From contig NZ_KV917372.1 of NCBI RefSeq assembly GCF_002019635.1, forward strand, positions 558,001-622,000: a DNA stretch of 64,000 nucleotides, read 5' to 3'. This DNA is from Metabacillus halosaccharovorans (GTDB taxonomy: Bacteria; Bacillota; Bacilli; Bacillales; Bacillaceae). Below the pieces are notes generated by a model that was not told where the DNA came from, ran no database searches, and saw only the letters and a program-made list of their open reading frames with translations. This document shows positions 31,033 through 49,076 of this stretch, piece by piece. Within the stretch, counting starts at the first letter, position 1, and each line of letters starts with the position of its first letter. The position numbers and the translations under genes were made by a program.

Positions 31033-31794
31033 TTAAAAAATAGACACCAGCTCTTTTGTATAGGGATGACGATCATCACTAAATAGATGCTCTTGATTAA
31101 ATTGATCCACAATCTCGCCTGAATTCATGACTATTATCCGTTGACTCATCTGGCTAACTGCCGCAAGATCATGAGAAATAAATAAATAAGAGAGATTTAA
31201 TGTTTCACGAAGTTCAGTGAGTAAAGTTAAGATAGCCTTTTGTGAGATAACATCAAGACTTGCAGTCGGCTCATCTAATACAATGAGTTCTGGTTCTATA
31301 CTTATAGCACGGGCAATCGTTACACGCTGCTTTTGTCCTCCACTTAATTCATGAGGATATCGATTAGCCAATTCTGATGGCAATCCAACCGCATCAAGAA
31401 GCTGTGAAACAAACTGCTCCTTAGAGGTATAGAAGAAATGATTTAGATTCAGCGAATGGTGGTATTGTTCATAAGGGTCAATCAGTGAATCCTTTATTTT
31501 TAGTTTAGGATTTAAAGCAGCTGAAGGATTTTGAAACACAATTTGGATTTTATTTCGATAAGGATGCAGTCGACGTTCGTCCAATTTCTCAATCGCTTCA
31601 CCATGAAATAAAATGGATCCGCTATCTATTTTTTCTACCCGTAATAAGCAACGTGCCAGCGTACTTTTTCCACATCCGCTTTCTCCAACAAGTCCGAGAC
31701 ATTCACCCTTATTTAAGTGAAATGAAACATTCTTCAGTGCTTCCTTTCCTGATTTAAATGTCTTTTTTACCTCTTTAATCTTAAGCAGACTCAT
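31033..31794 (-). CDS. nikE: nickel/peptide-type ABC transporter ATPase 2 (NikE-like)
   Basis: A 253-residue ABC ATPase, last gene of the five-gene metal importer operon. Walker A is GESGCGKST (about 38-46), signature HELSGGQKQRVTIARAI, Walker B LIVLDEPTASLD. The family 'peptide/nickel importer' typically carries two such ATPases with a C-terminal oligopeptide-type extension ('DDRHPYTKELVS' is the usual ending). It overlaps the upstream ATPase by 4 bp. With two Zur boxes ahead of the operon it probably imports zinc, or a nickel/zinc-ligand complex; the Nik name is by family resemblance only. Confidence 0.85.
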   Translation of the reverse strand: MSLLKIKEVKKTFKSGKEALKNVSFHLNKGECLGLVGESGCGKSTLARCLLRVEKIDSGSILFHGEAIEKLDERRLHPYRNKIQIVFQNPSAALNPKLKIKDSLIDPYEQYHHSLNLNHFFYTSKEQFVSQLLDAVGLPSELANRYPHELSGGQKQRVTIARAISIEPELIVLDEPTASLDVISQKAILTLLTELRETLNLSYLFISHDLAAVSQMSQRIIVMNSGEIVDQFNQEHLFSDDRHPYTKELVSIF

Positions 31795-32591
31795 ACATGC
31801 TCCACCTCCTCTAATCCTGATCGCAGACCACTACCTAAAATAGGTGCAGCAGAGATAAGCTGCTTTGTATAAGGGTGACCTGGATGATCAAGGATACGAT
31901 GCTTATGCCCTTTTTCAACAATTTGTCCATCCTTCATGATGGCAAGTCGGTCAGCATACCGCCTCACATGACGCCAATCATGGGTGATAAATAAAATCGT
32001 ACAACCTGTTTCTTTTTGCCTCTTTGCCAACAGCTCCAGGATTCTATGACCTGAAACACTATCAAGTGCAGTTGTCATTTCGTCAGCTATGATTAAGTCT
32101 GGTGATAACAAAAGAGCGATTGCAATGGAAACCCTTTGCAACTGGCCTCCACTCAATTGAAATGGATAACGTTTGTATAATGTTTCATCTAACCCGACAG
32201 ATTCCAGAGCGTCAATGGAATGTTGTTTTCTTTCTATTTTATCCTTTATGCCATGTGTTTTCTGGTACTCGTCAAGATGCTGGCCAATTGTTCGAAAAGG
32301 GGTGAATGAGCCCTGATAATCCTGGAAAATATACGATACTTTACGTCCACGAATGTTTCTCATGTCTTTTTGTGTGTAGGTCAGCAGATCCTCACCTCTA
32401 AAAAGAATTCTTCCGGTTACCTTTAAATTCGGCGACAGCATTTGCCCGATTGCCTGAGAAAGTAAGCTTTTACCGCTACCACTTTGGCCAACAAGCGCAA
32501 ACCATTCCCCTTCTTTAATCGAAAGAGATACAGTATCTACAATATTCTTTTCTTTACTCGCAATTGATAGTTGTTCAATCGATAATATCAC
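31791..32591 (-). CDS. nikD: nickel/peptide-type ABC transporter ATPase 1 (NikD-like)
   Basis: A 266-residue ATPase starting at GTG 32591 with AGGTG upstream, adjoining the stop of the permease gene. Walker A GQSGSGKS, signature QLSGGQLQRVSIAIAL, Walker B LIIADEMTTALD, H-loop FITHDWRHVRRY. As in NikD/OppD, the C-terminus holds the extra region ('ILDHPGHPYTKQLISAAPI') for interaction with permeases. In this transporter type NikD and NikE form the heterodimeric motor that drives import. Confidence 0.88.
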   Translation of the reverse strand: MILSIEQLSIASKEKNIVDTVSLSIKEGEWFALVGQSGSGKSLLSQAIGQMLSPNLKVTGRILFRGEDLLTYTQKDMRNIRGRKVSYIFQDYQGSFTPFRTIGQHLDEYQKTHGIKDKIERKQHSIDALESVGLDETLYKRYPFQLSGGQLQRVSIAIALLLSPDLIIADEMTTALDSVSGHRILELLAKRQKETGCTILFITHDWRHVRRYADRLAIMKDGQIVEKGHKHRILDHPGHPYTKQLISAAPILGSGLRSGLEEVEHV

Positions 32592-33437
32592 TTACCGCAC
32601 CTCTTTCTTCACATCAAAAATATCTCGCAAATAATCTCCGAGCATATTCGTTAACAGCACAACAAGTACAATAGCCAAACCAGGATAGACCATTAACTCA
32701 GGTCTTGATTGAAAATAAGAACGAGAATCGTTTAACATCGCACCCCACTCAGGAGTTGGCGGCTGTACACCAAGTCCAATATAAGAAAACGCAGAAATAA
32801 GCAAAATAATCTTTCCTAAATCAAGGCTGGCCAGAACCAAAACATGACCAACTATATGAGGAAACAAATGCTTGCGCATAATTTTCCATGAGGAAAGTCC
32901 ATTGATTTTTGCGATTAAAATATATTCCTTTTGAGATTCTGATAATACTGTACTTCTTACTAACCGAGCATAACTAACCCATTTAACAAATACAATCGCA
33001 AGGACCAGATTACCAATTCCCGGGCCCATAAGACCGCTTAATACAATTGCGACAATTGTATCAGGAAATGATAGAAATCCATCAGCAATACGCATAAAAA
33101 TCTTATCAACTAACCCACGTTTATAACCGGAAATAAGACCAAAAGGGACACCAATAATGAGAGCAGCAACTAGTGCCAGTAAACTATATCCAATGGTCTG
33201 CTGTCCACCCAGCAATAATCTTGTCAATACATCCCGGCCAAGTTGATCCGTACCAAACGGATGCAGAAGACTCATTCCTAGAAGCCGTCCATCCAGATTG
33301 GTCAAAAATGGATCATGCTTTAAGTATAAGAAAGTATAGATTGTAACCCACAGAAACATGATAATGGCCAAAAGGAGCACAATCATTTTCCAACTGGATT
33401 GTTTACCTTTCAGTACCTGTAACGACATTGCTTTCAT
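32592..33437 (-). CDS. nikC: nickel/peptide-type ABC transporter permease 2 (NikC-like)
   Basis: A 281-residue BPD-type permease with an N-terminal extension helix, then the 'DQLGRDVLTRLLLGGQQTI' motif characteristic of NikC/OppC/DppC, five or more helices and the EAA loop 'YILIAKINGLSSWKIMRKHLFPHI' that contacts the ATPase. The C-terminal signature 'VLLTNMLGDYLRDIFD' ('l.nllGD.lrd.lDP'-like) is also conserved. The start overlaps the NikB stop (TGATG). Confidence 0.92.
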   Translation of the reverse strand: MKAMSLQVLKGKQSSWKMIVLLLAIIMFLWVTIYTFLYLKHDPFLTNLDGRLLGMSLLHPFGTDQLGRDVLTRLLLGGQQTIGYSLLALVAALIIGVPFGLISGYKRGLVDKIFMRIADGFLSFPDTIVAIVLSGLMGPGIGNLVLAIVFVKWVSYARLVRSTVLSESQKEYILIAKINGLSSWKIMRKHLFPHIVGHVLVLASLDLGKIILLISAFSYIGLGVQPPTPEWGAMLNDSRSYFQSRPELMVYPGLAIVLVVLLTNMLGDYLRDIFDVKKEVR

Positions 33438-34381
33438 CAGTTGGTCTCCATTTCTTTTAGCTTCAATTCAGGATTTAGATAGCGATACGATAAATCTACA
33501 CATGTATTCACAACAAAAACGATCATTGCCATAATTAAAATATATCCTTGGATAATCGGATAATCTCGTTGACGAATGGCATCGATCACCAGCTTCCCAA
33601 TTCCCGGATACGCGAATAATACCTCAATAACGACTACCCCGCCGATTAGACTTCCTAAACTAACCCCAAACACTGTAATTACAGGTGGGAGACTATGGCG
33701 AAAAGCATGCAGCACAAAAATACGTCTTTCTGACAATCCACGTGCTCTCGCTGATCGAACAAATTCCTGACTTAATGAATCTAGTAAACTTGAACGTAGT
33801 AAACGAACATAAACACTTGAAATAGCTAATCCAAGTGTAAACGAAGGTAAAATTATCGACGAGAATCCGTCCCGTCCCATTGTTGGGAACAAGCTAAATC
33901 GTACACCAAATAGATCAATTAAAATTAAACCTAACCAAAAACTTGGTACAGCAGCACCAAGTATTGATAATGTACGACTTACTTGATCAATCCAGCTATT
34001 GAGATAAAGAGCAGAGAGCGAGCCTAGTGGAATCGCCACTGCCAGCATGACAAATAACGAACCTAACGATAATTCGATTGTGGCTGGGAGACTTTGCAGA
34101 AACATTTCCATGACAGGTTGACCTGTAACATAGGATGTACCTAAATCCAACTGGATGAATTTCATTAACCAGTGTCCATATTGAGCAAGCAAGGGCTTAT
34201 TAAAGCCCATATCCTCTCTCAATTCCTCTACCTGCTCCTGACTAACTGATAACTCATCGACATTTAGAATTGTTAAGACAGGATCTCCAGGAGCTAATCT
34301 TACAAATAAGAAACTAACAAATGTAAGAAATAACATAAAAAGGAGAACTTCAATGAATTTTCCTGTAATAATACGAAGCAT
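33437..34381 (-). CDS. nikB: nickel/peptide-type ABC transporter permease 1 (NikB-like)
   Basis: A 314-residue permease of the NikB/OppB/DppB type. It starts MLRIITGKFIEVLLFMLFLT, carries the periplasmic conserved 'RLAPGDPVLTIL' and 'LDLGTSYVTGQPV', and the EAA loop 'EFVRSARARGLSERRIFVLHAFRHSLPPV'. The final domain 'VIEVLFAYPGIGKLVIDAIRQRDYP' is the usual OppB-type signature. It directly follows the binding-protein gene (one-base gap), so the two are cotranscribed. Confidence 0.93.
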   Translation of the reverse strand: MLRIITGKFIEVLLFMLFLTFVSFLFVRLAPGDPVLTILNVDELSVSQEQVEELREDMGFNKPLLAQYGHWLMKFIQLDLGTSYVTGQPVMEMFLQSLPATIELSLGSLFVMLAVAIPLGSLSALYLNSWIDQVSRTLSILGAAVPSFWLGLILIDLFGVRFSLFPTMGRDGFSSIILPSFTLGLAISSVYVRLLRSSLLDSLSQEFVRSARARGLSERRIFVLHAFRHSLPPVITVFGVSLGSLIGGVVVIEVLFAYPGIGKLVIDAIRQRDYPIIQGYILIMAMIVFVVNTCVDLSYRYLNPELKLKEMETN

Positions 34382-34382
34382 A

Positions 34383-35942
34383 TTACTTCACATCCAGTTT
34401 ATTGGTAATCATGTAATATTCACTACGTGTGGTTACCCACTTTTCCACTTTGTTTTCGTTATAAGCAACAATTGTAGAAGGATGTAAAACAAACGAGTTA
34501 ATCACATTTTCATGAACATAATCTGCTGCCTGCTCTGCAAGCACAGCACGGTCTTCTTGGTTTACTGTTTGGTTCAGCTTGTCAATAATTTCCGTTAACT
34601 CCGGCTCATGGGCACCACTAAAATTAAGTGCACCAGTTGGATGATATGTGGCATTTAAATAATAGCCCGCATCTCCACGAGGAGCTGTTAAATTACTATA
34701 GGTAGCCAAGTCCCAATCACGATTTGACGCCATATATTCTTCCGGAATATCAATCTGACGGATTTCTACATCAATTCCAATTTGTTTTGCATCAGATTGA
34801 AAGACTTGAGCAATTAAAGGTAAATCTGCTCTAGCACTATAGGTTAATAGAGTAAAAGAAAGTTCCTCTCCGTCTTTTTGCATTTTGCCATCCTCAAGTG
34901 TGTAGCCAGCTTCCTTCAAATACTTAATTGCTGCTTCTTTACCTGTTTCACTTTGTTTATATGATGGAGCAAACGGTAATGATGGAGCAAATGGACCAAC
35001 CGCAGGCTCTGCATAACCTAATAAAATCGTATCCACAATCTTTTGGCGATCGATCAGTGCATCAACAGCACGGCGAACATTTACATCCTGTAAGCTTTTT
35101 CGCTCCATATTCATGGTCATCTGATGAACGCGGAATGTCTCTGTTGCTTCCACCTTCATGCCTTCTTGTTTGCTTAATGAATCTAAGCTTTCAACCTCTG
35201 GACGATACACAATATCCACTTCTCCAGACTTAAGAGCAAGAGTTCTGGCATTTGCATCCTCATTAAAGGCAAACGTAACAGAATCAAGATTCGATGGTCC
35301 GTCCCAATAATCATCATATCGTTCAAGCTTAAGATTGCTTCCCGGCTCAAATGAGGTTAAAGCGAAGGGTCCTGTCCCAATAGGATGATTTATAATGTCT
35401 TCTTCTGTAACATCTATAATAGATACATTTGGGTTTACAAGTTCAGAAATAAATTCAGGGAAAGGCTGCTTTGTTTTGATATGTAATGTATATCCATTTG
35501 CCTCAATCGTATCAATTTTCAATGCATTTTGTATCGCAACACTTTCTTTAAGGGCACGTTCAAGTGATGCCTTTACAGCATTAGCATCCATCTCTTTTCC
35601 ATTGTGAAAAGTAATTCCTTCTCGAAGATTAATTGACCAATTGACTCCGTCCTCACCGCTCCAATCCTTTGCAAGCCAAGGGGCAATCGTTAAGTTTTCC
35701 TCATCTAATTTTACTAGCGTTTCTGTTATCCCTGCTCTTAGTGGGACATAACTTGTATCAACATGGGGATCAAGAGAATTTGTCGAAAAATTATATAGAA
35801 AGCTGATATGCTTACTGTCTTCTTTTTGGCTGCTATTGCTCGCGTCTGTACAAGCTGTTAAGATGCTTGCAATAATCAATAAGATACTGAGTTTCATCAT
35901 AATTCCACTGTTATACTGTTTTTTACTTCTAATTAATTTCAT
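34383..35942 (-). CDS. nikA: metal/peptide ABC transporter substrate-binding lipoprotein (NikA-like), Zur-box controlled
   Basis: About 519 residues. I start at ATG 35942, which follows AAAGGGAG; the longer frame would run through the operator. The signal peptide ends in lipobox LTAC (Cys31). The mature part is SBP family 5 (OppA/NikA): 'YNFSTNSLDPHVDTSYVPLRAGITETLVKL', 'TFHNGKEMDANAVKASLERAL' and 'PIGTGPFALTSFEPGSNLKLERY'. It resembles the staphylococcal NikA group, which binds Ni-histidine chelates, more than E. coli NikA. Two Zur operators within 60 bp of the start indicate induction under zinc starvation, so the ligand may be zinc or a zinc-amino-acid complex. Confidence 0.83.
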   Translation of the reverse strand: MKLIRSKKQYNSGIMMKLSILLIIASILTACTDASNSSQKEDSKHISFLYNFSTNSLDPHVDTSYVPLRAGITETLVKLDEENLTIAPWLAKDWSGEDGVNWSINLREGITFHNGKEMDANAVKASLERALKESVAIQNALKIDTIEANGYTLHIKTKQPFPEFISELVNPNVSIIDVTEEDIINHPIGTGPFALTSFEPGSNLKLERYDDYWDGPSNLDSVTFAFNEDANARTLALKSGEVDIVYRPEVESLDSLSKQEGMKVEATETFRVHQMTMNMERKSLQDVNVRRAVDALIDRQKIVDTILLGYAEPAVGPFAPSLPFAPSYKQSETGKEAAIKYLKEAGYTLEDGKMQKDGEELSFTLLTYSARADLPLIAQVFQSDAKQIGIDVEIRQIDIPEEYMASNRDWDLATYSNLTAPRGDAGYYLNATYHPTGALNFSGAHEPELTEIIDKLNQTVNQEDRAVLAEQAADYVHENVINSFVLHPSTIVAYNENKVEKWVTTRSEYYMITNKLDVK

Positions 35943-35961
35943 TATTATACTCCCTTTACAA

Positions 35962-36002
35962 CCGTAATCATTCCGTTTTAAATAATATCGTAATAATTTC
36001 GA
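35962..36002 (-). promoter_or_regulatory. two tandem Zur operators in front of the nik-like operon
   Basis: CCGTAATCATTCCGT (35962-35976) and TCGTAATAATTTCGA (35988-36002), compared with the Bacillus Zur consensus TCGTAATnATTACGA: 11 and 13 of 14 arm positions match. They lie 20 and 46 bp upstream of the binding-protein start, where repression by zinc-loaded Zur is expected. Confidence 0.8.
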
Positions 36003-36210
36003 TTTATCAAGAGCTTTATATTTTAATAGAAATTTATTCAAACAACTTTAGGAAAAGCTGGTTTTCAACGATATGATTCATTCTAATGAAACTTTTCAAT
36101 CAGCTAAGGTTTTAACAAGAAGCGACCTACGTCTCCAAGCCTTGTCGCTAAAAATCAAATATCGAATGAGGACTATACAATTATTAAGAATACGAAAACT
36201 GAAACAATTA

Positions 36211-40425: not shown

Positions 40426-40440
40426 TCGTAACGATTACGT
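40426..40440. promoter_or_regulatory. Zur operator between the MBL-fold and dcd-like genes
   Basis: TCGTAACGATTACGT matches the Zur consensus at 12 of 14 arm positions. It lies 54 bp before the dCTP deaminase-like gene and about 200 bp before the divergent MBL-fold gene, so it most likely controls the former and perhaps both. Confidence 0.82.
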
Positions 40441-40493: not shown

Positions 40494-41066
40494 ATGATTC
40501 TTTCCAATCAATCTATTAAAAGAAAATTATTAGATCAGGAGTTGAAAATTGCCCCTATTTCTAAAACACAATTTCAACCTGCTTCTGTTGACTTGCGTTT
40601 AGGCAACCACTTTTTAGCTATCGATGAAACGTCAGTACCCTATCTTTCATTAGATAAATCTTTTGATTATAGAGAGTTTTACGAAGATAAAATCCTAATT
40701 CCTCCCCATGGTTTTATCCTTGGCACTACTCTTGAGTGGATTAAGCTCCCAAACAACTTAACAGCATTTGTGGATGGAAGAAGTTCAATTGGAAGACTTG
40801 GACTTTTCATTCAAAATGCAGGCTGGGTTGATCCCGGATTTGAAGGGAACATCACACTGGAATTGTACAATGCAAATCAGGTCCCAATTGAGTTAACTTC
40901 CCGCAGAAGAATTTGCCAACTAGTCTTTGCTGAGCTTGATCAGGAGGGCCCTGCTTATTGCGGTAAATATATAGGGCAGGACAGAGCCATTCAAAGTCGA
41001 ATCGATTTGGATGAAGAATGCAGAAATCAGTATCATCCTGAAAACTTATTTAAGGAGTTTGATTAA
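40494..41066 (+). CDS. dCTP deaminase/dUTPase-like protein, Zur-box controlled
   Basis: A 190-residue trimeric-type DCD/dUTPase fold. It has the nucleotide-binding GRSSIGRLG (95-103), the segment VDPGFEGNITLELYN containing the family's catalytic glutamate (Glu123 in LELYN), and the C-terminal RIDLDEE region. DCD makes dUTP (or dUMP in the bifunctional form) from dCTP without any metal ligand other than magnesium. The alternative Bacillus route uses zinc-dependent dCMP deaminase (ComEB). Zur control of a zinc-free deaminase would parallel FolE2 and the S14 paralogue. Deaminase and dUTPase activities cannot be separated by eye. A terminator follows. Confidence 0.82.
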   Translation: MILSNQSIKRKLLDQELKIAPISKTQFQPASVDLRLGNHFLAIDETSVPYLSLDKSFDYREFYEDKILIPPHGFILGTTLEWIKLPNNLTAFVDGRSSIGRLGLFIQNAGWVDPGFEGNITLELYNANQVPIELTSRRRICQLVFAELDQEGPAYCGKYIGQDRAIQSRIDLDEECRNQYHPENLFKEFD

Positions 41067-41204: not shown

Positions 41205-42383
41205 TTAACTCACAAATATTTTTCTACGATCATATGCAAAGAAAATCATTATCACACCTAATCCTGCACAAATCATATACATAGATGAATACGAGTAAGT
41301 ATCAGCTATGGGCCCCATTATGACACTACCTAGTGATACGCCTAAATCCGCCATAGCTATAAATAATCCCAATAAAACATTTCGATTATCATGAGGTAAT
41401 ACAAAGCTTAAATACGTGGTTAACGTAGGATACAACAAAGCCTGAGCTATTCCCATTAAACAGGCACCTACATAAAAGAGAATCGCTCCCCCATTTAGAG
41501 CAAAGCTAACACACAGTGCTGCTATTGCTAGTAGAAGCATATTTCCCATCATAAAAGATGAATGCCATTTCCCGTCAGAGGGAATTTTTTTTCTTAAAGT
41601 AAAACGGGAAATCACAACAGTCCCCGCCATAAGCATTAAAAAAATACCAGCGTTACTGCTTGTTAGTTGTTCAGCATATAGAGGTATGAAGGTAGTTATC
41701 GCACCAAATACAATAGAACCACTTAACATAAGAACACTACATTTTAATAAATACGGATTTTTTACTAACTGACCAAATGAACTGAACCTATTTACGCCTT
41801 GAAAAGAGTTTTCCCTTATCGTTTCTGTCTCCGCTTTATCTATTTGAGCACTATAGCCCACCAGCCCAGTAATGACAGCAATTGATATCATTACTAGTGC
41901 AAAGTATTCCCTTCCTCCCTGCCATATCCCTAATGCAAGTAATGGACCAATAATTCCTGGTATATATGAAAATAAAGAATAAAGAGAAATTCCCTGAGAG
42001 CGATCTTCTTCTGGCAGTGCATCAATAATTCCTAACTGTAATGCCATTGAAAAAAAGGCAGTCGAAACGCCTTGTAACATGCGAGCAACCAGGTAGCCAC
42101 CTAGTCCAGTAATCGTATATAAAATCAAGGCCATACCATTAATAATTAGAATAATTCTCAATACTTTTATCGGTCCATGCTTTTGAATAATATGACCTGA
42201 CCATGGTCTAAAAAACATGGTCGTAAACATATAAGCCCCCATAATCAGTCCGATTGTTGTATTAGTAGCTCCTAATGATTCTCCTTTTAAAGGAATAAGG
42301 ACATTTAATAGAGAATTTGCACTAAAATAAAGAAGCACCAAAACATACAACCGTATAAAGGGCCAAGACAAAGCTCCATTCAA
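41205..42383 (-). CDS. cntE: staphylopine-type metallophore exporter, MFS (CntE-like)
   Basis: A 392-residue MFS protein with about 12 helices. It begins MNGALSWPFIRLYVLVLLYF and carries 'SLGATNTTIGLIMGAYMFTTMFFRPWSGHI', 'GVSTAFFSMALQLGIIDALPEEDRSQGISLYSLFS' and 'YPTLTTYLSFVLPHDNRNVLLGLFIA'. By recall these match Staphylococcus aureus CntE (staphylopine exporter) very closely. TTG 42383 follows GGGGGAG; the longer frame upstream is less likely. It is the last gene of a cntABCDFE-ordered operon. CntE pumps the apo-metallophore out of the cell; no cntKLM synthesis genes are seen in this window. Confidence 0.88.
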   Translation of the reverse strand: MNGALSWPFIRLYVLVLLYFSANSLLNVLIPLKGESLGATNTTIGLIMGAYMFTTMFFRPWSGHIIQKHGPIKVLRIILIINGMALILYTITGLGGYLVARMLQGVSTAFFSMALQLGIIDALPEEDRSQGISLYSLFSYIPGIIGPLLALGIWQGGREYFALVMISIAVITGLVGYSAQIDKAETETIRENSFQGVNRFSSFGQLVKNPYLLKCSVLMLSGSIVFGAITTFIPLYAEQLTSSNAGIFLMLMAGTVVISRFTLRKKIPSDGKWHSSFMMGNMLLLAIAALCVSFALNGGAILFYVGACLMGIAQALLYPTLTTYLSFVLPHDNRNVLLGLFIAMADLGVSLGSVIMGPIADTYSYSSMYMICAGLGVIMIFFAYDRRKIFVS

Positions 42384-42434
42384 GATCGATTCTCCCCCAG
42401 TTCTATACCAAATCAAACTAGATAGTTGACATCA

Positions 42435-43181
42435 TTAAATCGTTATGATCGAATGTAATAATCTTCTTGCATACGCTGACTTAACATCCTTTAAGTGTTC
42501 GATTTTAATTATTTCTTCAATCTGACCTTCCTTAAAAATAATGACTCTATCACAAATATAGGCAGCAGCTTGTATATCATGCGTAATAAATATATAACTC
42601 ATGTTATACATTCTTTTTAATTCCTTAAGTAAATCAAGGACTTGTGTTTGAACTGACACATCTAGAGAACTGATTGCCTCATCTAATAAAATACAAGTTG
42701 GTTCTGTTGAGATTGCTCTTGCAATACATACTCTTTGAACCTCTCCTCCTGATAATTCATGGGGGTATTTGTTTCGATAAGATGCAGGCAATCCAACTTG
42801 ATTTAATAGATTCTTACTCTTTTCTCTCATCGCTTGTTTACTATTCTTTTGAATTTTCATAGGCTCCATTATTGCCTCTTCAACGGTAAAGAACGGATTA
42901 ATAGAAGATTTATAATCTTGGAAGACAGCGCTTATATGACCTAACCTCACTTTTCTATCGACTACATTTCTTTCATTGAAAAAAACATGTCCACGATCAG
43001 GCTTTTCAATCCCCATGATCAAGCGGCCTAATGTTGATTTTCCGCTCCCACTTTCCCCGATAATACCAAGACATTCTCCACTGTCACACTCAAAGCTGAC
43101 ATTCTTTAAAACATTCTGCCTTTTTACAGAAAACAAACCGCCTTTTTTATAGGCTTTCTCAACAGAATCAACCCTTAGCAA
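42435..43181 (-). CDS. cntF: ABC transporter ATPase of metallophore importer (CntF-like)
   Basis: A 248-residue ATPase. Walker A GESGSGKST, signature HELSGGEVQRVCIARAI, Walker B CILLDEAISSLD, with the C-terminal OppF-type tail shortened. I use TTG 43181, with GGGGAGGGG in good distance; TTG 43187 is possible. It overlaps the preceding cntD gene by 14 bp, so they are coupled. Position and partner genes follow the S. aureus order cntA-B-C-D-F-E. Confidence 0.87.
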   Translation of the reverse strand: MLRVDSVEKAYKKGGLFSVKRQNVLKNVSFECDSGECLGIIGESGSGKSTLGRLIMGIEKPDRGHVFFNERNVVDRKVRLGHISAVFQDYKSSINPFFTVEEAIMEPMKIQKNSKQAMREKSKNLLNQVGLPASYRNKYPHELSGGEVQRVCIARAISTEPTCILLDEAISSLDVSVQTQVLDLLKELKRMYNMSYIFITHDIQAAAYICDRVIIFKEGQIEEIIKIEHLKDVKSAYARRLLHSIITI

Positions 43182-43992
43182 CGACAACCCCTCCCCCTAT
43201 TAACCTCTTAAAATGACTACTTAAAGCCACTCTAGTAGAAATCAAATATTTCGTATATTCATGTTTGGGTTGTACAAATATAGCTTCAGTATTACCTCTT
43301 TCAACAATTTCTCCATTCTTCATGACTAAAATATCATCCGCGATTTTTCTTACAACACCCAAATCATGTGAAATAAATATCATCGAGCATCCCATTCTTT
43401 CCCGCAATTTCATAAATTGGTCGACTACTTCAAATTGTGAAATCGTATCTAGAGCTGTTGTCGGTTCATCAGCAATAATAATATACGGCTCCAGGACAAA
43501 AGCTAATGCAATCATGATTCGTTGCAACATTCCACCTGATAATTGATGTGGATATTTGTTCATAATTTCAGTGGGGTTTTTCAACATAACGCTCTTCATA
43601 GCTACAGTCATGCTTTCTTCTATTTCTTTTTTACTCCAATTGAAATGTTCTGTTAAGGTTTCTCTTAGATGAACACCAACCACACAGGATGGGTCAAATG
43701 CACTCATCCCATTTTGTAAGATCATACAAAAATTTTTCCCCCTTTTCTTTCTCATCTCTCTTTCAGAAAGCTGGTTGATGTTTTCACCTTTAAACAGGAT
43801 GTCTCCAGTTTGTTGCAGAGATGGTCCATTTAATCTCATAATAGCTCGACAAGTCACAGACTTTCCGCTCCCACTTTCTCCTACGATTGCCAGGCAACTC
43901 CCACCCTTTAAGTGGAATGAACTATCTTGAATAATCTTTTTACCAGAATGAGCGTCCCATACTTTTAAGTTGTTTACCTCTAAAATATTCAT
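43168..43992 (-). CDS. cntD: ABC transporter ATPase of metallophore importer (CntD-like)
   Basis: A 274-residue ATPase with Walker A GESGSGKSV, signature QLSGGMLQRIMIALAF, Walker B IIIADEPTTALD and H-loop FISHDLGVV. The C-terminus 'FVQPKHEYTKYLIS' is the usual OppD-type extension that docks on the permease. With CntF it forms the motor for uptake of the metal-loaded nicotianamine-like opine. The ATG has AAGGTGG upstream and lies 3 bp after the cntC stop. Confidence 0.88.
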   Translation of the reverse strand: MNILEVNNLKVWDAHSGKKIIQDSSFHLKGGSCLAIVGESGSGKSVTCRAIMRLNGPSLQQTGDILFKGENINQLSEREMRKKRGKNFCMILQNGMSAFDPSCVVGVHLRETLTEHFNWSKKEIEESMTVAMKSVMLKNPTEIMNKYPHQLSGGMLQRIMIALAFVLEPYIIIADEPTTALDTISQFEVVDQFMKLRERMGCSMIFISHDLGVVRKIADDILVMKNGEIVERGNTEAIFVQPKHEYTKYLISTRVALSSHFKRLIGGGVVVAKG

Positions 43993-43995
43993 GAT

Positions 43996-44892
43996 CTAAT
44001 TAGCCACCTTTTTTTCTTGAACATTCGTCTTAGAAAACCCTAATTTATGTTTATTGGTGTTTTTAGAGTTTACTAATTTTGGATCTAAAGCAACTTGAAG
44101 TGAATCAGAAAAAAAATTAAACACCGATACAATAATCACGATAGCAAGCCCTGGAGCTACCATTAATTCGGGTCTAGTAAACATCACTTCCCTTGCTTCA
44201 TTTAACATCATTCCCCATTCAGCATGAGGTGCTTGAATTCCTAATCCTAAGAATGAAAAACCAGAAATTTGCAAAATCATCGACCCAATCGATGCACTAG
44301 AAATCACGGCGATGTCAGAAAAGGTAACCGGAATAATATGCCTGCAAATGATGTTGATTTCACTTAAACCGGAGGCTTTGGCGAATTTAATGTAATTCAA
44401 TTCAGTATACTGCATAACAGATGTTCTAATAATGCGAGCAAACCATGACCATTTGATTAAAGCAAATGCAATAAGGATGTTTTCAAGGCCCACGCCTAAA
44501 ATACCAATAACCGCTAACGCCATCACATATCCCGGAAAAGAAAGCATGATGTCACATATTCTCATAATGACTGCATCTATTTTCCCTCTGAAATAGCCAG
44601 CCACAAAACCTAAGATTGCCCCGATTAATACCGATATAAAGAGAACAACCAAAACCCATAAGACACTTGGCCGAACACCATAGATCAATCTGGACAGGAC
44701 ACATCTTCCAAGGTGGTCGTTGCCTAACAAATACTTCCATGAGGGTGAGGCATAACGCAGACTCATCTTGATTTCATTAGGATCATGTGGTGAAAATACC
44801 GGTGCAAAAATGCCAACAATAATGGTGATCATGATAACGACCAAAGATATGAGAGCTAATCTATCTTTACATATGTTTTTCAATATTCTCAT
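43996..44892 (-). CDS. cntC: ABC permease of metallophore importer (CntC-like)
   Basis: A 298-residue permease with the OppC/NikC signature 'GNDHLGRCVLSRLIYGVRPSVLW' after its first helix and five further helices. The EAA loop is 'YIKFAKASGLSEINIICRHIIPVTF', and the C-terminal 'FNFFSDSLQVALDPKL' is characteristic of the family. It directly follows cntB (no gap). The membrane pair CntBC forms the translocation path for the metallophore complex. Confidence 0.9.
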   Translation of the reverse strand: MRILKNICKDRLALISLVVIMITIIVGIFAPVFSPHDPNEIKMSLRYASPSWKYLLGNDHLGRCVLSRLIYGVRPSVLWVLVVLFISVLIGAILGFVAGYFRGKIDAVIMRICDIMLSFPGYVMALAVIGILGVGLENILIAFALIKWSWFARIIRTSVMQYTELNYIKFAKASGLSEINIICRHIIPVTFSDIAVISSASIGSMILQISGFSFLGLGIQAPHAEWGMMLNEAREVMFTRPELMVAPGLAIVIIVSVFNFFSDSLQVALDPKLVNSKNTNKHKLGFSKTNVQEKKVAN

Positions 44893-45825
44893 TTATAGAT
44901 CATTCCTTAGCTTAGGATTCATCGCAACATTGATAATGTCAGAAAGTGTATTAAACAAAACAAACGATGCTGCAAGTATAAGAACATATGCCTGGATAAT
45001 AGGGAAGTCTCTGCTTAGAATGGCATTAACACTCAACGTTCCTAATCCCGGCCAGGCAAAAACATTTTCTACTACGACAGTACTTCCCAATATGATAGGG
45101 ATTGCCATACCAAATATTGAAATGGTTACTTGCAATGAATTTCTAAGAATATGCAGGATGATTTTCTTCTCTGATAACCCTGATGCCCTCCCATACAAAA
45201 CATAATCCTCATTTAAATTGCTCAACATAGAGGTTCTCACATTTCTAAAATAAATACCTGCATAGCTGATAGTGATGACAAACACTGGTAAAATATAACT
45301 TTTATATGAATCCATTCCGTTTGTTGGCAGTAGATCTAATTGAACTGAAACATACCAAATCAAAATGGATGCTAACAAATACGACGGCATTGCCGTTAAT
45401 AAAAATGATAATCCTCTGATCGATTTATCAATCATTTTTCCTTCTTTCAGTGCACATATAACACCTAGTAGAATAGACATGAAGATAATAAAAACAGATG
45501 ATACGACTGTTAACTTTAACGTGTTTATAAATGCAGGACCTATTAATGACCACACTTGTTCTCCATTAATATATGAATCTCCAAAATCTAACTGTAAGGA
45601 GGCGAAAAGCCAATCAAAATATTGAAGGAGAAATGGCTTATTCATCCCTAACTCTTCTCTCGTTTGTTCTAATAATTCATCTGTTATCTGTGGAACACCT
45701 TGAGCTTGTAATACGACTTCAGCAGGATCTAATGGAGAAAGATTCATTAAGACAAACGTCAAAAACGAGATGATCAATAGTAAAGGTACAGAAATGAGTA
45801 CCCTCTTGATAATGTAACTTCCCAT
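44893..45825 (-). CDS. cntB: ABC permease of metallophore importer (CntB-like)
   Basis: A 310-residue OppB/NikB-type permease. It begins MGSYIIKRVLISVPLLLIIS, carries the conserved 'NLSPLDPAEVVLQAQGVP' after the first helix, and shows the EAA loop 'DYVLYGRASGLSEKKIILHILRNSLQVT'. The final domain 'VENVFAWPGLGTLSVNAILSRDFP' is the usual one. ATG 45825 follows AAGGGG. It lies 75 bp downstream of cntA, with a hairpin between them that should lower expression of the membrane genes relative to the binding protein. Confidence 0.9.
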   Translation of the reverse strand: MGSYIIKRVLISVPLLLIISFLTFVLMNLSPLDPAEVVLQAQGVPQITDELLEQTREELGMNKPFLLQYFDWLFASLQLDFGDSYINGEQVWSLIGPAFINTLKLTVVSSVFIIFMSILLGVICALKEGKMIDKSIRGLSFLLTAMPSYLLASILIWYVSVQLDLLPTNGMDSYKSYILPVFVITISYAGIYFRNVRTSMLSNLNEDYVLYGRASGLSEKKIILHILRNSLQVTISIFGMAIPIILGSTVVVENVFAWPGLGTLSVNAILSRDFPIIQAYVLILAASFVLFNTLSDIINVAMNPKLRNDL

Positions 45826-45874
45826 AGACAAACCCCTTTTTTATCAAAACTAATAAAATATTTACAATTCTAAA

Positions 45875-45899
45875 ATAAAAAAGGAGGAAATTCCCCCTC
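45875..45899 (-). terminator. attenuator-like hairpin between cntA and cntB
   Basis: On the minus strand GGGGG-5-CCTCC (with a G-U pair) is followed by TTTTTT within a few bases of the cntA stop. A leaky terminator after a binding-protein gene is a common way to make more binding protein than permease. Confidence 0.6.
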
Positions 45900-45900
45900 T

Positions 45901-47523
45901 CTATTTAAACTCCATTAACTCAAACGGCAGCTCAAATTGTGTTTGCTTGAATGAAAGCCCATTTAGGCTAGATGGGGCTACTACTGTCACACTTCCATTT
46001 GAAATAGGGATAAACACTGCTTCCTCATGAACCATTGTCAATATATCTGCATATAATGATTTTCTTGTTTCCTCATCCGTTGACACCATAACTTCATCAA
46101 TCTTCTTGTACAATTCGTCTGCATTTTCCATGCCTTTGGTGGTATGTAAATATGAAGCATCTGATGTAAAAGCAGAGATAGTACTTTGTGGGTCGTAAGC
46201 TAGCCCCCAAGTTTGGTTGAATAACAAATCATAGTCACCCGTTGACCTTCTGTTCGCAATAGAGGTTGACTCCTCACCTATGATCTCCAACTCAACTCCA
46301 ATTTCTTTTAATGAAGCTTGGATAAATTCAGCCTGAGTTTTTTGAGAAGAAGAATTGCTATCATAATAGAGGTTCATAACTAACTTTTTGCCGTTTTTCG
46401 TTCTAACATCACTTCCATTCTCTAAATCCCAACCAGCTTCTTCCAGTATCATCTTCGCTTTTTCTAAATCATAGCTTCGTTTCTTTAAATCAACATCACC
46501 ATAATTGACGTTCTGAGAAAATAGTGTATTGGCTACTATTTCAGTACCATTCAATATATCTTTTGTAATGGTTTCCCTATCAATTGAATACCAAATCGCT
46601 TCACGAACAGCTTTTTCCGTAACTGGATAATCCGTTTTACTACTATTTGCCACAATCATTTTTGTATTCATTGGTTCACTTCTAACAAGTTGGTAATCAC
46701 CTGAATCAACTAATTGATTCATCGCTTCAACATCAAGGCTATCTGCACCCCGATCATCCGTAAAGACAAAGTTGACTTCTCCTTTTTTCATGGCTAAGAA
46801 CGTCGTTTCCCCTGCTGGAAGAACTTTAGAGGTAATGGTCTTTATTTTAGGTACACCACCCCAATATTGATCATTTGCTTTAAACGTCGCATACTCTTCT
46901 GTTTTATGTTCGGCCAAAATGTATGGTCCAGTACCGTTAAAACCACTTACCCCATCTTTTGTTCCATTATTAATGAAATCTTTAGGGGAAATAAATACAT
47001 ACGGCCTGGTCATCGATAATTCAACCAATGTAGGGTAATAAGGTTCTGATAGAATGATTTTAACTGTATATTCATCTACAACATCCACACTATCAATTTT
47101 TGTAGATAACTTAATCCAAGCATGTTTTTCTGCATTTTCTTGTACAGCATCGATATTTTTCTTTACTGCATCTGCGTTAAAAGGTTCGCCGTCATGAAAT
47201 TTCACATCTTGTCTTAGTTGGAACGTGTAAACTTTTCCATCATCTGAAATCTCCCAAGATTCAGCAAGCAATGGTTTGATTCCATCTTCCGTATTTTCAA
47301 CTAATGATTCGTAGACTTTCCCTTGAGCAGGCATTGAACCCGTATACATATGTGGATTCATATCGTTAATATCTTTAGCAGAAGCATAGATTAAATCTGT
47401 TACACTATTATTTTTTTTAGTATCCCCATTTTTCTCACTACTAGAATTTTCTGCAGAGCAGGCAACTAGAATAGAAAAAAACAATACGATTATGGATGCT
47501 AACTTACACTTTTTAACGATCAC
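45901..47523 (-). CDS. cntA: metallophore-binding lipoprotein (staphylopine CntA-like), Zur-box controlled
   Basis: A 540-residue SBP family 5 lipoprotein starting at GTG 47523; the lipobox is LVAC (Cys22). The mature sequence closely follows S. aureus CntA by recall, for example DINDMNPHMYTGSMPAQG, DGIKPLLAESWEISDDGKVY, KFHDGEPFNADAVKKNIDAV, PAGETTFLAMKKGE, VFTDDRGADSLD, NRRSTGDYDLLFNQTWG and the C-terminal FELPFELMEF. CntA binds staphylopine loaded with Ni, Co, Zn or Fe outside the cell and passes it to CntBCDF. Two Zur operators precede the gene, so zinc starvation should induce it. Confidence 0.9.
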   Translation of the reverse strand: MIVKKCKLASIIVLFFSILVACSAENSSSEKNGDTKKNNSVTDLIYASAKDINDMNPHMYTGSMPAQGKVYESLVENTEDGIKPLLAESWEISDDGKVYTFQLRQDVKFHDGEPFNADAVKKNIDAVQENAEKHAWIKLSTKIDSVDVVDEYTVKIILSEPYYPTLVELSMTRPYVFISPKDFINNGTKDGVSGFNGTGPYILAEHKTEEYATFKANDQYWGGVPKIKTITSKVLPAGETTFLAMKKGEVNFVFTDDRGADSLDVEAMNQLVDSGDYQLVRSEPMNTKMIVANSSKTDYPVTEKAVREAIWYSIDRETITKDILNGTEIVANTLFSQNVNYGDVDLKKRSYDLEKAKMILEEAGWDLENGSDVRTKNGKKLVMNLYYDSNSSSQKTQAEFIQASLKEIGVELEIIGEESTSIANRRSTGDYDLLFNQTWGLAYDPQSTISAFTSDASYLHTTKGMENADELYKKIDEVMVSTDEETRKSLYADILTMVHEEAVFIPISNGSVTVVAPSSLNGLSFKQTQFELPFELMEFK

Positions 47524-47701
47524 TGTACTTCTCTCCCTTAACGTTATAAGCTTAAAAACTGGTAACTAAAAAAATTTACATGTATAGGAACCTCTCCTTC
47601 CTTTAATTTGTAGCTATTCTTATTTGAAACTTCCTTCACATACCTTTTCAAGAATCTAGCTTTTCACATTTCCTCCTTTTTACTTAATCCTCCACATTAA
47701 A

Positions 47702-47778
47702 ACGTAAATATTACGATTTATCGAATAAAAAATAGATACTATTACATTTATCCAACACACAAACCGTAATGGTTACTA
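47702..47778 (-). promoter_or_regulatory. two Zur operators upstream of cntA
   Basis: ACGTAAATATTACGA (47702-47716) and CCGTAATGGTTACTA (47764-47778) match the Zur consensus at 12 and 11 of 14 arm positions. The spacing is about 62 bp, one nearer the cntA start (about 180 bp upstream) and one further. Both lie between cntA and the flavoprotein gene on the same strand. Confidence 0.75.
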
Positions 47779-47881
47779 TTTAAGATAGTACTATGTAAAT
47801 AAAATACTCGTCAACTACATTTTTGGATATTTTTACCGTTTTATAGATGTACCTCGATACATTTCCATAACTAACTCATTT

Positions 47882-49039
47882 TTACACAATAAACTCATTT
47901 ACAATTCGTTCTGCTGCTTTTCTTGCTCCTGAAATATTTCTAGAGACTGGACCAATTTCCAGTTCCGCTAATGCTCCTGAGACAAATAGATGTGGACACC
48001 ATTCGAGTTTTTGATTGATAATTGGATATCCACAACTTGCACATTTCAAATTTTCGGTATCAATTAATGCTTTTAACCAGGATTCTTCTGGAAGATTCGA
48101 GTTGAATCCTGTAGCCAACAATACAGTTTTAGTAGCGAGGCTATTGCCACTTTTAAGATGTAAAACATTTGACTGATCTTGAGAACTGGTCGTTACCACT
48201 TCATCACACTTCACTTTTAATGAGCCTTCTCTTTCTAGCTTTCTAATTTTTTGATAAATATCATTCGGCATGGAGCCTCTGTTTCGAGCAAGCTTAATTT
48301 GTTCTCTGCGCAAATCATAGTCAGTTATCTTTGAGAATGATTTCATAAACTTCGGACCTAACCATCCTGGGTCACTATCAAATCCGTGGACACGTAGCTT
48401 ATGCCTGGTAAGAAGTGTCACTTCTCCTGGAAAAATTCTACATAGATTGATCACAGTGTGTGCTGCTGTAATCCCTCCGCCAACTACCACAATGGAAGGT
48501 GTTAGTTCACTTAGGTTCGAAAGTTTTTCACTAAAAATATGTTTTACGTCATTCGAGGATTCCTTTACCCACTCAGGAATATGTAGTTTTTCATTAACGC
48601 TCACACTAAGAACAAGATTTTTGGTGATAAATGATTGACCATCATCTGTTTGAACGATCCATTTATCAAAATCCCGATATACATGAATCACTCTTCCTTT
48701 CTTCCAACATTTTTTTAACTGAGCTTGCTGAAGAACCTTGTCACAATGTTCATTAAATACTTGAAGAGAAGGGCGTTTATATTGACCATAAAAAGCCGTA
48801 TAATCAGTTGTGTTTTTAAAATTTTGCAGACTAAATACTGGAACATCAATATGATGAACAGACGGAGAACGCAGATACTCCATACCAATCTTATCAGTAT
48901 ATGTCCTCCATTTTTCCATCGGTTCATGATGAGGGTCAATGATTATAAGGTTTTCAATCGTTGTTTTTTCATTCTTAATTAAGTAATTGCCAATAGTACA
49001 ACCATGAATCCCTCCACCTATTATTATCCATTCATACAT
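47882..49039 (-). CDS. FAD/NAD(P)-binding oxidoreductase (N-hydroxylase-like), Zur-box controlled
   Basis: A 385-residue flavoprotein. GGGIHGCTIG (residues 8-17) is the FAD-binding glycine motif and VVVGGGITAAHTVINL (near 188) the NAD(P)H motif. 'LLATGFNSN' is the ATG-type motif seen in FAD-dependent amine N-hydroxylases (SidA/IucD/COG4529 group). Near the end are 'CASCG' and 'CPHLF'. ATG 49039 follows GGAGGAG, and a Zur operator lies 23 bp further upstream. The partner substrate is unknown; a role in the metallophore system is inferred only from position and shared regulation. Confidence 0.75.
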   Translation of the reverse strand: MYEWIIIGGGIHGCTIGNYLIKNEKTTIENLIIIDPHHEPMEKWRTYTDKIGMEYLRSPSVHHIDVPVFSLQNFKNTTDYTAFYGQYKRPSLQVFNEHCDKVLQQAQLKKCWKKGRVIHVYRDFDKWIVQTDDGQSFITKNLVLSVSVNEKLHIPEWVKESSNDVKHIFSEKLSNLSELTPSIVVVGGGITAAHTVINLCRIFPGEVTLLTRHKLRVHGFDSDPGWLGPKFMKSFSKITDYDLRREQIKLARNRGSMPNDIYQKIRKLEREGSLKVKCDEVVTTSSQDQSNVLHLKSGNSLATKTVLLATGFNSNLPEESWLKALIDTENLKCASCGYPIINQKLEWCPHLFVSGALAELEIGPVSRNISGARKAAERIVNEFIV

Positions 49040-49061
49040 AAAAGCTCTCCTCCAAGACAAA

Positions 49062-49076
49062 TCGTAATAGTTACGT
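49062..49076 (-). promoter_or_regulatory. Zur operator of the flavoprotein gene
   Basis: TCGTAATAGTTACGT matches the Zur consensus at 12 of 14 arm positions and lies 23 bp before the ATG, in the position expected for repression. Confidence 0.85.

Follow-up and report, generated by a model that had tools for sequence, protein, structure and literature searches.

An exporter without synthesis: the cntABCDFE transport genes of Metabacillus halosaccharovorans lack cntKLM and may serve metallophore scavenging

Why would a genome that lacks the genes for making a metallophore keep the pump that exports it? A 64,000-nucleotide stretch of Metabacillus halosaccharovorans DNA (the window, to whose positions all coordinates refer) raises this question. 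Six open, collinear genes on its minus strand, running from 47523 to 41205 in the order cntA-B-C-D-F-E, correspond to the importer CntABCDF and the exporter CntE of the Staphylococcus aureus staphylopine locus, and the synthesis genes cntKLM were not found. Sequence comparison establishes orthology with that system, the absence of cntKLM, an arrangement and spacer common to two relatives, and constraint on all six genes. We think it likely that the operon lost its synthesis genes and was kept as a Zur-controlled scavenging pair of importer and exporter, in which CntE would re-export the imported ligand.

The identity of the six genes was assigned with NCBIfam profiles and their curated cut-offs (Table 1). 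CntA, followed in order by two permeases and two ATPases, and the exporter CntE both score above the cut-offs of their families, and CntA aligns over 505 residues, at 638 bits, with PDB chains 5yh8, 5yhe and 5yh5, which we take to be S. aureus CntA. The second ATPase exceeds no NCBIfam cut-off (its top match is NikE, 249 bits against a cut-off of 332); we call it CntF because of where it stands and because it is 73-90% identical to the F-position proteins of the 11 other operons in which F was matched at full length. One of the 11, that of genome G016, has a stop in cntF (genomes carry our G numbers, the window's being G000). The CntF model NF047576 (cut-off 385) gives 473 bits for the D-position ATPase and 145 for the F-position ATPase, and annotation by this model may mislabel the two. 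By these matches the window genes are orthologues of S. aureus-type cntABCDFE, in agreement with an earlier sequence-only reading of the window, which had recognised the S. aureus gene order and the orthology of CntA and CntE. The locus resembles S. aureus cntKLM-ABCDFE in the A, B, C, D, F, E order given in PMC9598555, in orthology and in Zur-like boxes; it differs in that cntKLM was not found in its genome and two Zur-like boxes lie directly upstream of cntA.

The synthesis genes are missing from the genome as a whole. The sequence-only reading had noted their absence from the window, and tblastn with seven complete operons bore this out, for its sole matches in the window were weak, methyltransferase-like ones (E no better than 0.008) at 28.2-28.6 kb. 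It had also proposed a genome-wide check, in case the genes lay elsewhere. We searched the 5.4 Mb genome, which is in four contigs and rated 100% complete, and found zero matches to the CntM family PF10100, which four genomes in the genus match at 672-696 bits; zero matches to the CntK profile, which scores 549 and 579 bits in two genomes of the genus; and for the CntL profile, at 437 and 453 bits in the same two, only a 48-position, 22-bit methyltransferase-like fragment. None of CntK, CntL and CntM was thus found in the genome, which excludes biosynthetic genes elsewhere as far as recognisable homologues are concerned.

The genes were most likely lost rather than never present in the window lineage, because four of the 21 genus genomes, the window's being one of the 21, have complete operons and the window has a scar in common with two relatives. 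In the genus sample CntE is over its cut-off in 11 genomes and CntM occurs in four, always within a complete cntKLM-ABCDFE operon, leaving seven genomes with CntE and without CntM. Four of these (G000, G010, G018, G020) have all six transport genes intact; in G016, which also has the six, cntF is interrupted by a stop at codon 70; G019 keeps cntK, cntD and cntE with a frameshifted cntF, cntM, A and B being gone; and G005 keeps cntE with scraps of cntM, A and F. One loss probably preceded the divergence of G000, G010 and G016, as the flavoprotein-to-cntA arrangement of the window is common to all three and their spacers are similar (identities of 137/159, 91/139 and 83/130 among them; the G000-G016 match count was reached by none of 100 shuffles). 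No remnant of cntKLM is recognisable in the window spacer: its best match was equalled by 116 of 200 shuffles, and 51, 101 and 176 of 200 shuffles did as well for G010, G016 and G018. In P. harenae fragments of cntL and a stop-bearing cntM lie directly before cntA. Remnants, scars and the common operon order therefore favour loss over gain. Two further rearrangements were seen: a deletion in G019 (L037:10465-11484) joined cntL in frame with the 3' portion of cntC into a single open frame of 339 residues, and in Lysinibacillus macroides (locus L153), whose cntM match contains a stop, the cntKLM matches lie downstream of cntE.

The remaining operon appears to be under zinc control. Using a Zur-box consensus, we predicted Zur-like boxes from sequence and found five in the window at no more than two mismatches, against 0.29 expected (none of 100 shuffles reached five), and 12 at three mismatches, against 4.4 expected. 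Two predicted boxes precede cntA, at 47702-47716 (two mismatches) and 47764-47778 (three mismatches), which would place the operon in the Zur regulon; the second is not significant alone, because of the 12 found against 4.4 expected. The closest likeness of the two-box region is to the G002 promoter of cntK (71.7% identity over 127 nucleotides to the stretch upstream of that gene), so transcription of the window cntA may have passed to what was once the promoter of cntK. This origin is not certain, as the upstream one of the two boxes also has a 30-nucleotide match (86.7%) in the cntM-cntA interval of G001; the other long match, 76 nucleotides to G079, is mostly cntA coding sequence.

The sequence-only reading had argued that an exporter without synthesis speaks against simple piracy, and our survey does not support this. 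CntA is over its cut-off in nine of the 21 genus genomes (one being the window's), in 17 of 397 genomes of an order sample and in 35 of 324 of a class sample, two of them already counted, for a union of 9 + 16 + 33 = 58 genomes. CntE is over its cut-off in 58 of 58, with or without cntKLM (in G622 the match spans profile positions 86-388 only), so the exporter goes with the importer. CntM is missing from nine of the 58 (G000, G010, G016, G018, G020, G084, G194, G134 and G417), and all nine keep CntE. The 33 CntA genomes contributed by the class sample all have an adjacent CntM match, with a stop in that of G659 and CntK not detected in G699. Taken from the exporter's side, CntE reaches at least 600 bits in 21 genomes of the order sample, with CntM nearby in 12. 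Seven genomes have CntE at 590 bits or more and no CntA over cut-off (G005, G019, G197, G245, G263, G409, G511), six have only a CntE-like match of 350-400 bits (G122, G378, G390, G554, G598, G671), and G012, of the genus, has an importer whose binding protein falls under the CntA cut-off (636 of 800 bits), with no CntE beside it. A scan of named genomes with the CntE alignment, of which the best 80 of 191 relatives were kept, gave 11 loci with cntABCDFE and no intact cntKLM in the fetched flank, including G010 and G018; among the other nine genomes CntM is absent in eight, and P. harenae has only its stop-bearing remnant. These nine were found through CntE and are not part of the 58.

A tree of CntA plus CntE with 90 rows, 18 of them without cntKLM (KLM-less), was built by a quick method under LG+G4 and has long end branches for G134 and G160. 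The KLM-less label changes 14 times on this tree, at least ten of these changes being forced by starred branches, and five times once the nine KLM-less rows found through CntE are dropped; the tree by itself cannot separate loss from gain. The label is somewhat clustered (14 changes against a shuffled mean of 16.6, with 22 of 500 shuffles as low).

The transport genes have stayed under constraint. For cntE, three pairs within the KLM-less clade gave ratios of nonsynonymous to synonymous substitution rates (dN/dS) of 0.110, 0.134 and 0.153 (dS 0.32-0.48), beside 0.119-0.123 in four KLM-bearing pairs; the six cnt genes in three pairs of the clade range from 0.08 to 0.18 (dS 0.3-0.6), and the KLM-less pair G084-G194 gave 0.166 for cntE and 0.107 for cntA. 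We conclude from these ratios that CntE is under purifying selection after loss of cntKLM. Where cntE alone remains the values are 0.19 in G197, compared with its relative G134 (28 synonymous and 17 other differences), and 0.16 in G005, compared with G002, and part of either value may have accrued before the importer was lost.

How might such a pair work? In our proposal cntKLM would have been deleted between the flavoprotein gene and cntA, and the remaining operon kept as a scavenging system. In zinc shortage Zur would release the operon, as its boxes suggest; CntABCDF would take up a staphylopine-like opine, made by neighbours, in complex with metal (Metabacillus, Paenibacillus and Brevibacillus all include genomes with the complete operon); the metal would be freed in the cytoplasm; and CntE would pump the emptied ligand back out. 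Re-export would prevent toxic build-up and return the stolen ligand for another round, and for both reasons an importer-only cell would still need the exporter. The sequence-only reading had listed metallophores made by others among its options for the missing synthesis, and this is the option we favour. The proposed return of ligand to the outside after metal release is reminiscent of pyoverdine recycling in Pseudomonas aeruginosa, reportedly described by Imperi in 2009. There, in contrast, producers make their own ligand and the recycling transporter, PvdRT-OpmQ, is of another family; here recycling is what we infer.

S. aureus without staphylopine export suffers a harmful accumulation of staphylopine that does not act strictly via metal chelation (PMC9598555). 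A cell with the importer alone could meet a similar accumulation, which CntE would relieve. Staphylopine “cheating,” uptake without synthesis, has been described in Staphylococcus for S. lugdunensis, where CntA is likewise present without synthesis genes (PMC12709192). A further feature of the window is that its cntE is kept and constrained; PMC12709192 groups cntE with the synthesis genes. Mapping of opine-zincophore clusters has proceeded outward from CntM (PMC7438024), a design to which KLM-less loci are invisible. In our searches of the open-licence literature, which included zincophore cheating and siderophore recycling, we found nothing on CntE retention after loss of synthesis and nothing joining Metabacillus with staphylopine.

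We tentatively suggest, as a possibility short of an even bet, that these loci reflect a wider principle: the opine-zincophore exporter would be an obligate partner of the importer and the last part lost, importer-only cells would import, strip and re-export stolen metallophore in a closed loop, and many exporter-keeping scavengers would have arisen in Bacillales and Paenibacillaceae as synthesis was lost again and again. Metallophore cheating is usually read from receptors without synthesis genes. Among the genomes found through CntA, CntE is present after every loss of synthesis (nine genomes, five changes on the tree), which suggests that uptake of a foreign metallophore creates a need for its disposal. 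Bacillus relatives, with clean species for comparison, make recycling or detoxification of imported zincophore testable, and cntE should be treated with caution, as an unreliable marker of metallophore production.

Relatives of CntE also occur beside other importers. CntE-like proteins of the major facilitator superfamily (MFS) at five loci (L070, L072, L074, L076, L077) are 41-43% like CntE; the adjacent importer has a binding protein just 36-40% like CntA at four of them and is of Opp5A type at L074. CntM was not found in four genomes with such exporters beside other importers (G245, G409, G390, G378), which would extend the exporter-last rule if it is true. In several genomes of group f50, G499:C10 and G588:C11 among them, cntE is immediately followed by a second CntE-like gene of about 400 bits.

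Several points weigh against scavenging with re-export. Both the import of foreign opine and its re-export are steps that we infer, as is the action of CntE on imported rather than freshly made ligand. Loss is uneven, too: each of the 33 CntA genomes that the class sample added has a CntM match. In G005 and G197 CntE has survived although cntABCDF is gone, and in G019 it persists in a broken operon, so a need tied to import alone fails to explain its retention, unless these importer losses are recent; and to judge from the cntF stop of G016, one or more related importers may be failing. Since CntE was the route by which half of the 18 KLM-less rows were found, that half is uninformative on its retention. 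Finally, at columns conserved in KLM-bearing genomes, CntE departs more often in the 18 KLM-less than in the 72 KLM-bearing rows (mean 1.56 against 0.93, p 0.034), with no excess over 19 isolated KLM-bearing rows (mean 1.89, p 0.80); the window's own CntE departs at one of 139.

Instead of a bacterial opine the importer could serve another ligand, such as plant nicotianamine or an amino-acid-metal complex, with CntE exporting that ligand or its product. Nicotianamine is chemically close to staphylopine; even so, we regard this explanation as unlikely. The window CntA departs at one of 172 columns conserved in KLM-bearing genomes, and KLM-less CntA departs no more than KLM-bearing CntA (means 1.0 and 1.33); a specificity shift, sought at these columns, was not seen. 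The column that we label R418 is R in 90 of 90 rows, and a candidate contact residue, R140, was dropped as a misfit with the alignment of CntA to the PDB chains. The nicotianamine alternative can point to the equivalent of N448, a position of S. aureus CntA named in PMC12709192, which is A in the window, but this column is already variable in KLM-bearing genomes (S in 47 and A in 20 of 72). The column data thus give no sign of a changed pocket.

A second alternative, raised by the sequence-only reading, is that another enzyme set makes the opine, with the flavoprotein upstream of cntA taking part. The flavoprotein and its own Zur-like box are where that reading had put them (Table 1), at the site that cntKLM occupies in other genomes. 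Its predicted structure (mean confidence score, pLDDT, 72) is most like N-hydroxylating monooxygenases of siderophore pathways, the top Foldseek matches being DesB, putrescine N-hydroxylase, DfoA, PvdA and SidA (TM-score about 0.7), and it is intact upstream of cntA in four of 18 KLM-less loci. We nonetheless consider replacement quite improbable: G001 has the flavoprotein alongside complete cntKLM, and KLM-less G010, with intact cnt genes, has it only in an internally deleted form; the window genome has no CntM-like gene and no credible CntL; and among up to eight genes upstream of cntA no family recurs in more than five of the 18 KLM-less loci. The most common upstream families are zinc-related (CobW/ZigA in five, rpsN in four, the intact flavoprotein in four), and the flavoprotein lies near zinc-related genes in G076 and G409. 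It is probably a neighbour in a Zur-boxed island and not part of the transport function. A raw count that seemed to show its enrichment in KLM-less loci was discarded, because KLM-bearing loci reach less far upstream. Its CAxCGYPI motif is invariant in six aligned sequences.

The operon might also be a relic in slow decay, in which CntE is kept by chance only, as the cntF stop of G016 and the eroded loci of G005, G019 and G197 could indicate; the low dN/dS of all six genes, the kept Zur-like boxes and CntE in nine of nine KLM-less genomes with CntA leave this little chance. That the species carries cntKLM on a replicon or in a strain outside the assembly is very improbable, as the genome is rated complete and G010 and G016, which have the same scar, lack CntM too, even though relocation happens (L. 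macroides) and strain variation is reported in Staphylococcus (PMC12709192).

Table 1. Positions of the cnt transport genes and the features upstream of them in the window
Feature	Position	Strand	Basis
CntE, MFS exporter of staphylopine-type metallophores	41205..42416	-	NF047574, 686 bits (cut-off 235)
Second ATP-binding cassette (ABC) ATPase, CntF position (NikE-like)	42435..43187	-	position and identity to F-position proteins
CntD, first ABC ATPase	43168..43992	-	NF047578, 478 bits (cut-off 380)
CntC permease	43996..44892	-	NF047573, 494.8 bits (cut-off 440)
CntB, first permease	44893..45831	-	Opp1B NF045469, 497 bits (cut-off 380)
CntA, substrate-binding lipoprotein	45901..47523	-	NF047575, 972.2 bits (cut-off 800)
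Spacer where cntKLM probably stood	47539..47696	-	similar spacer in G010 and G016
Promoter region, two predicted Zur-like boxes	47696..47817	-	top long match is the cntK promoter of G002
Flavoprotein, N-hydroxylating-monooxygenase-like fold	47882..49060	-	Pfam Pyr_redox_2 and Lys_Orn_oxgnase over cut-off
Predicted Zur-like box of the flavoprotein	49062..49076	-	2 mismatches

Two neighbours of the operon in the window also have Zur-like boxes. At 31033-36041 lies a second, nikABCDE-like importer whose binding protein is of Opp5A type (742 bits, cut-off 600), and a Zur-like box lies at 35988. In six genomes of the family (L049-L054) this binding-protein cluster has CntL and CntM as neighbours, together with an EamA-like protein named by eye from its sequence, so the window's genome may hold a second opine importer without synthesis. 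The dCTP deaminase at 40494-41066 (183 bits, cut-off 92.8), whose Zur-like box is at 40426, is perhaps a zinc-sparing spare for the zinc-dependent dCMP deaminase.

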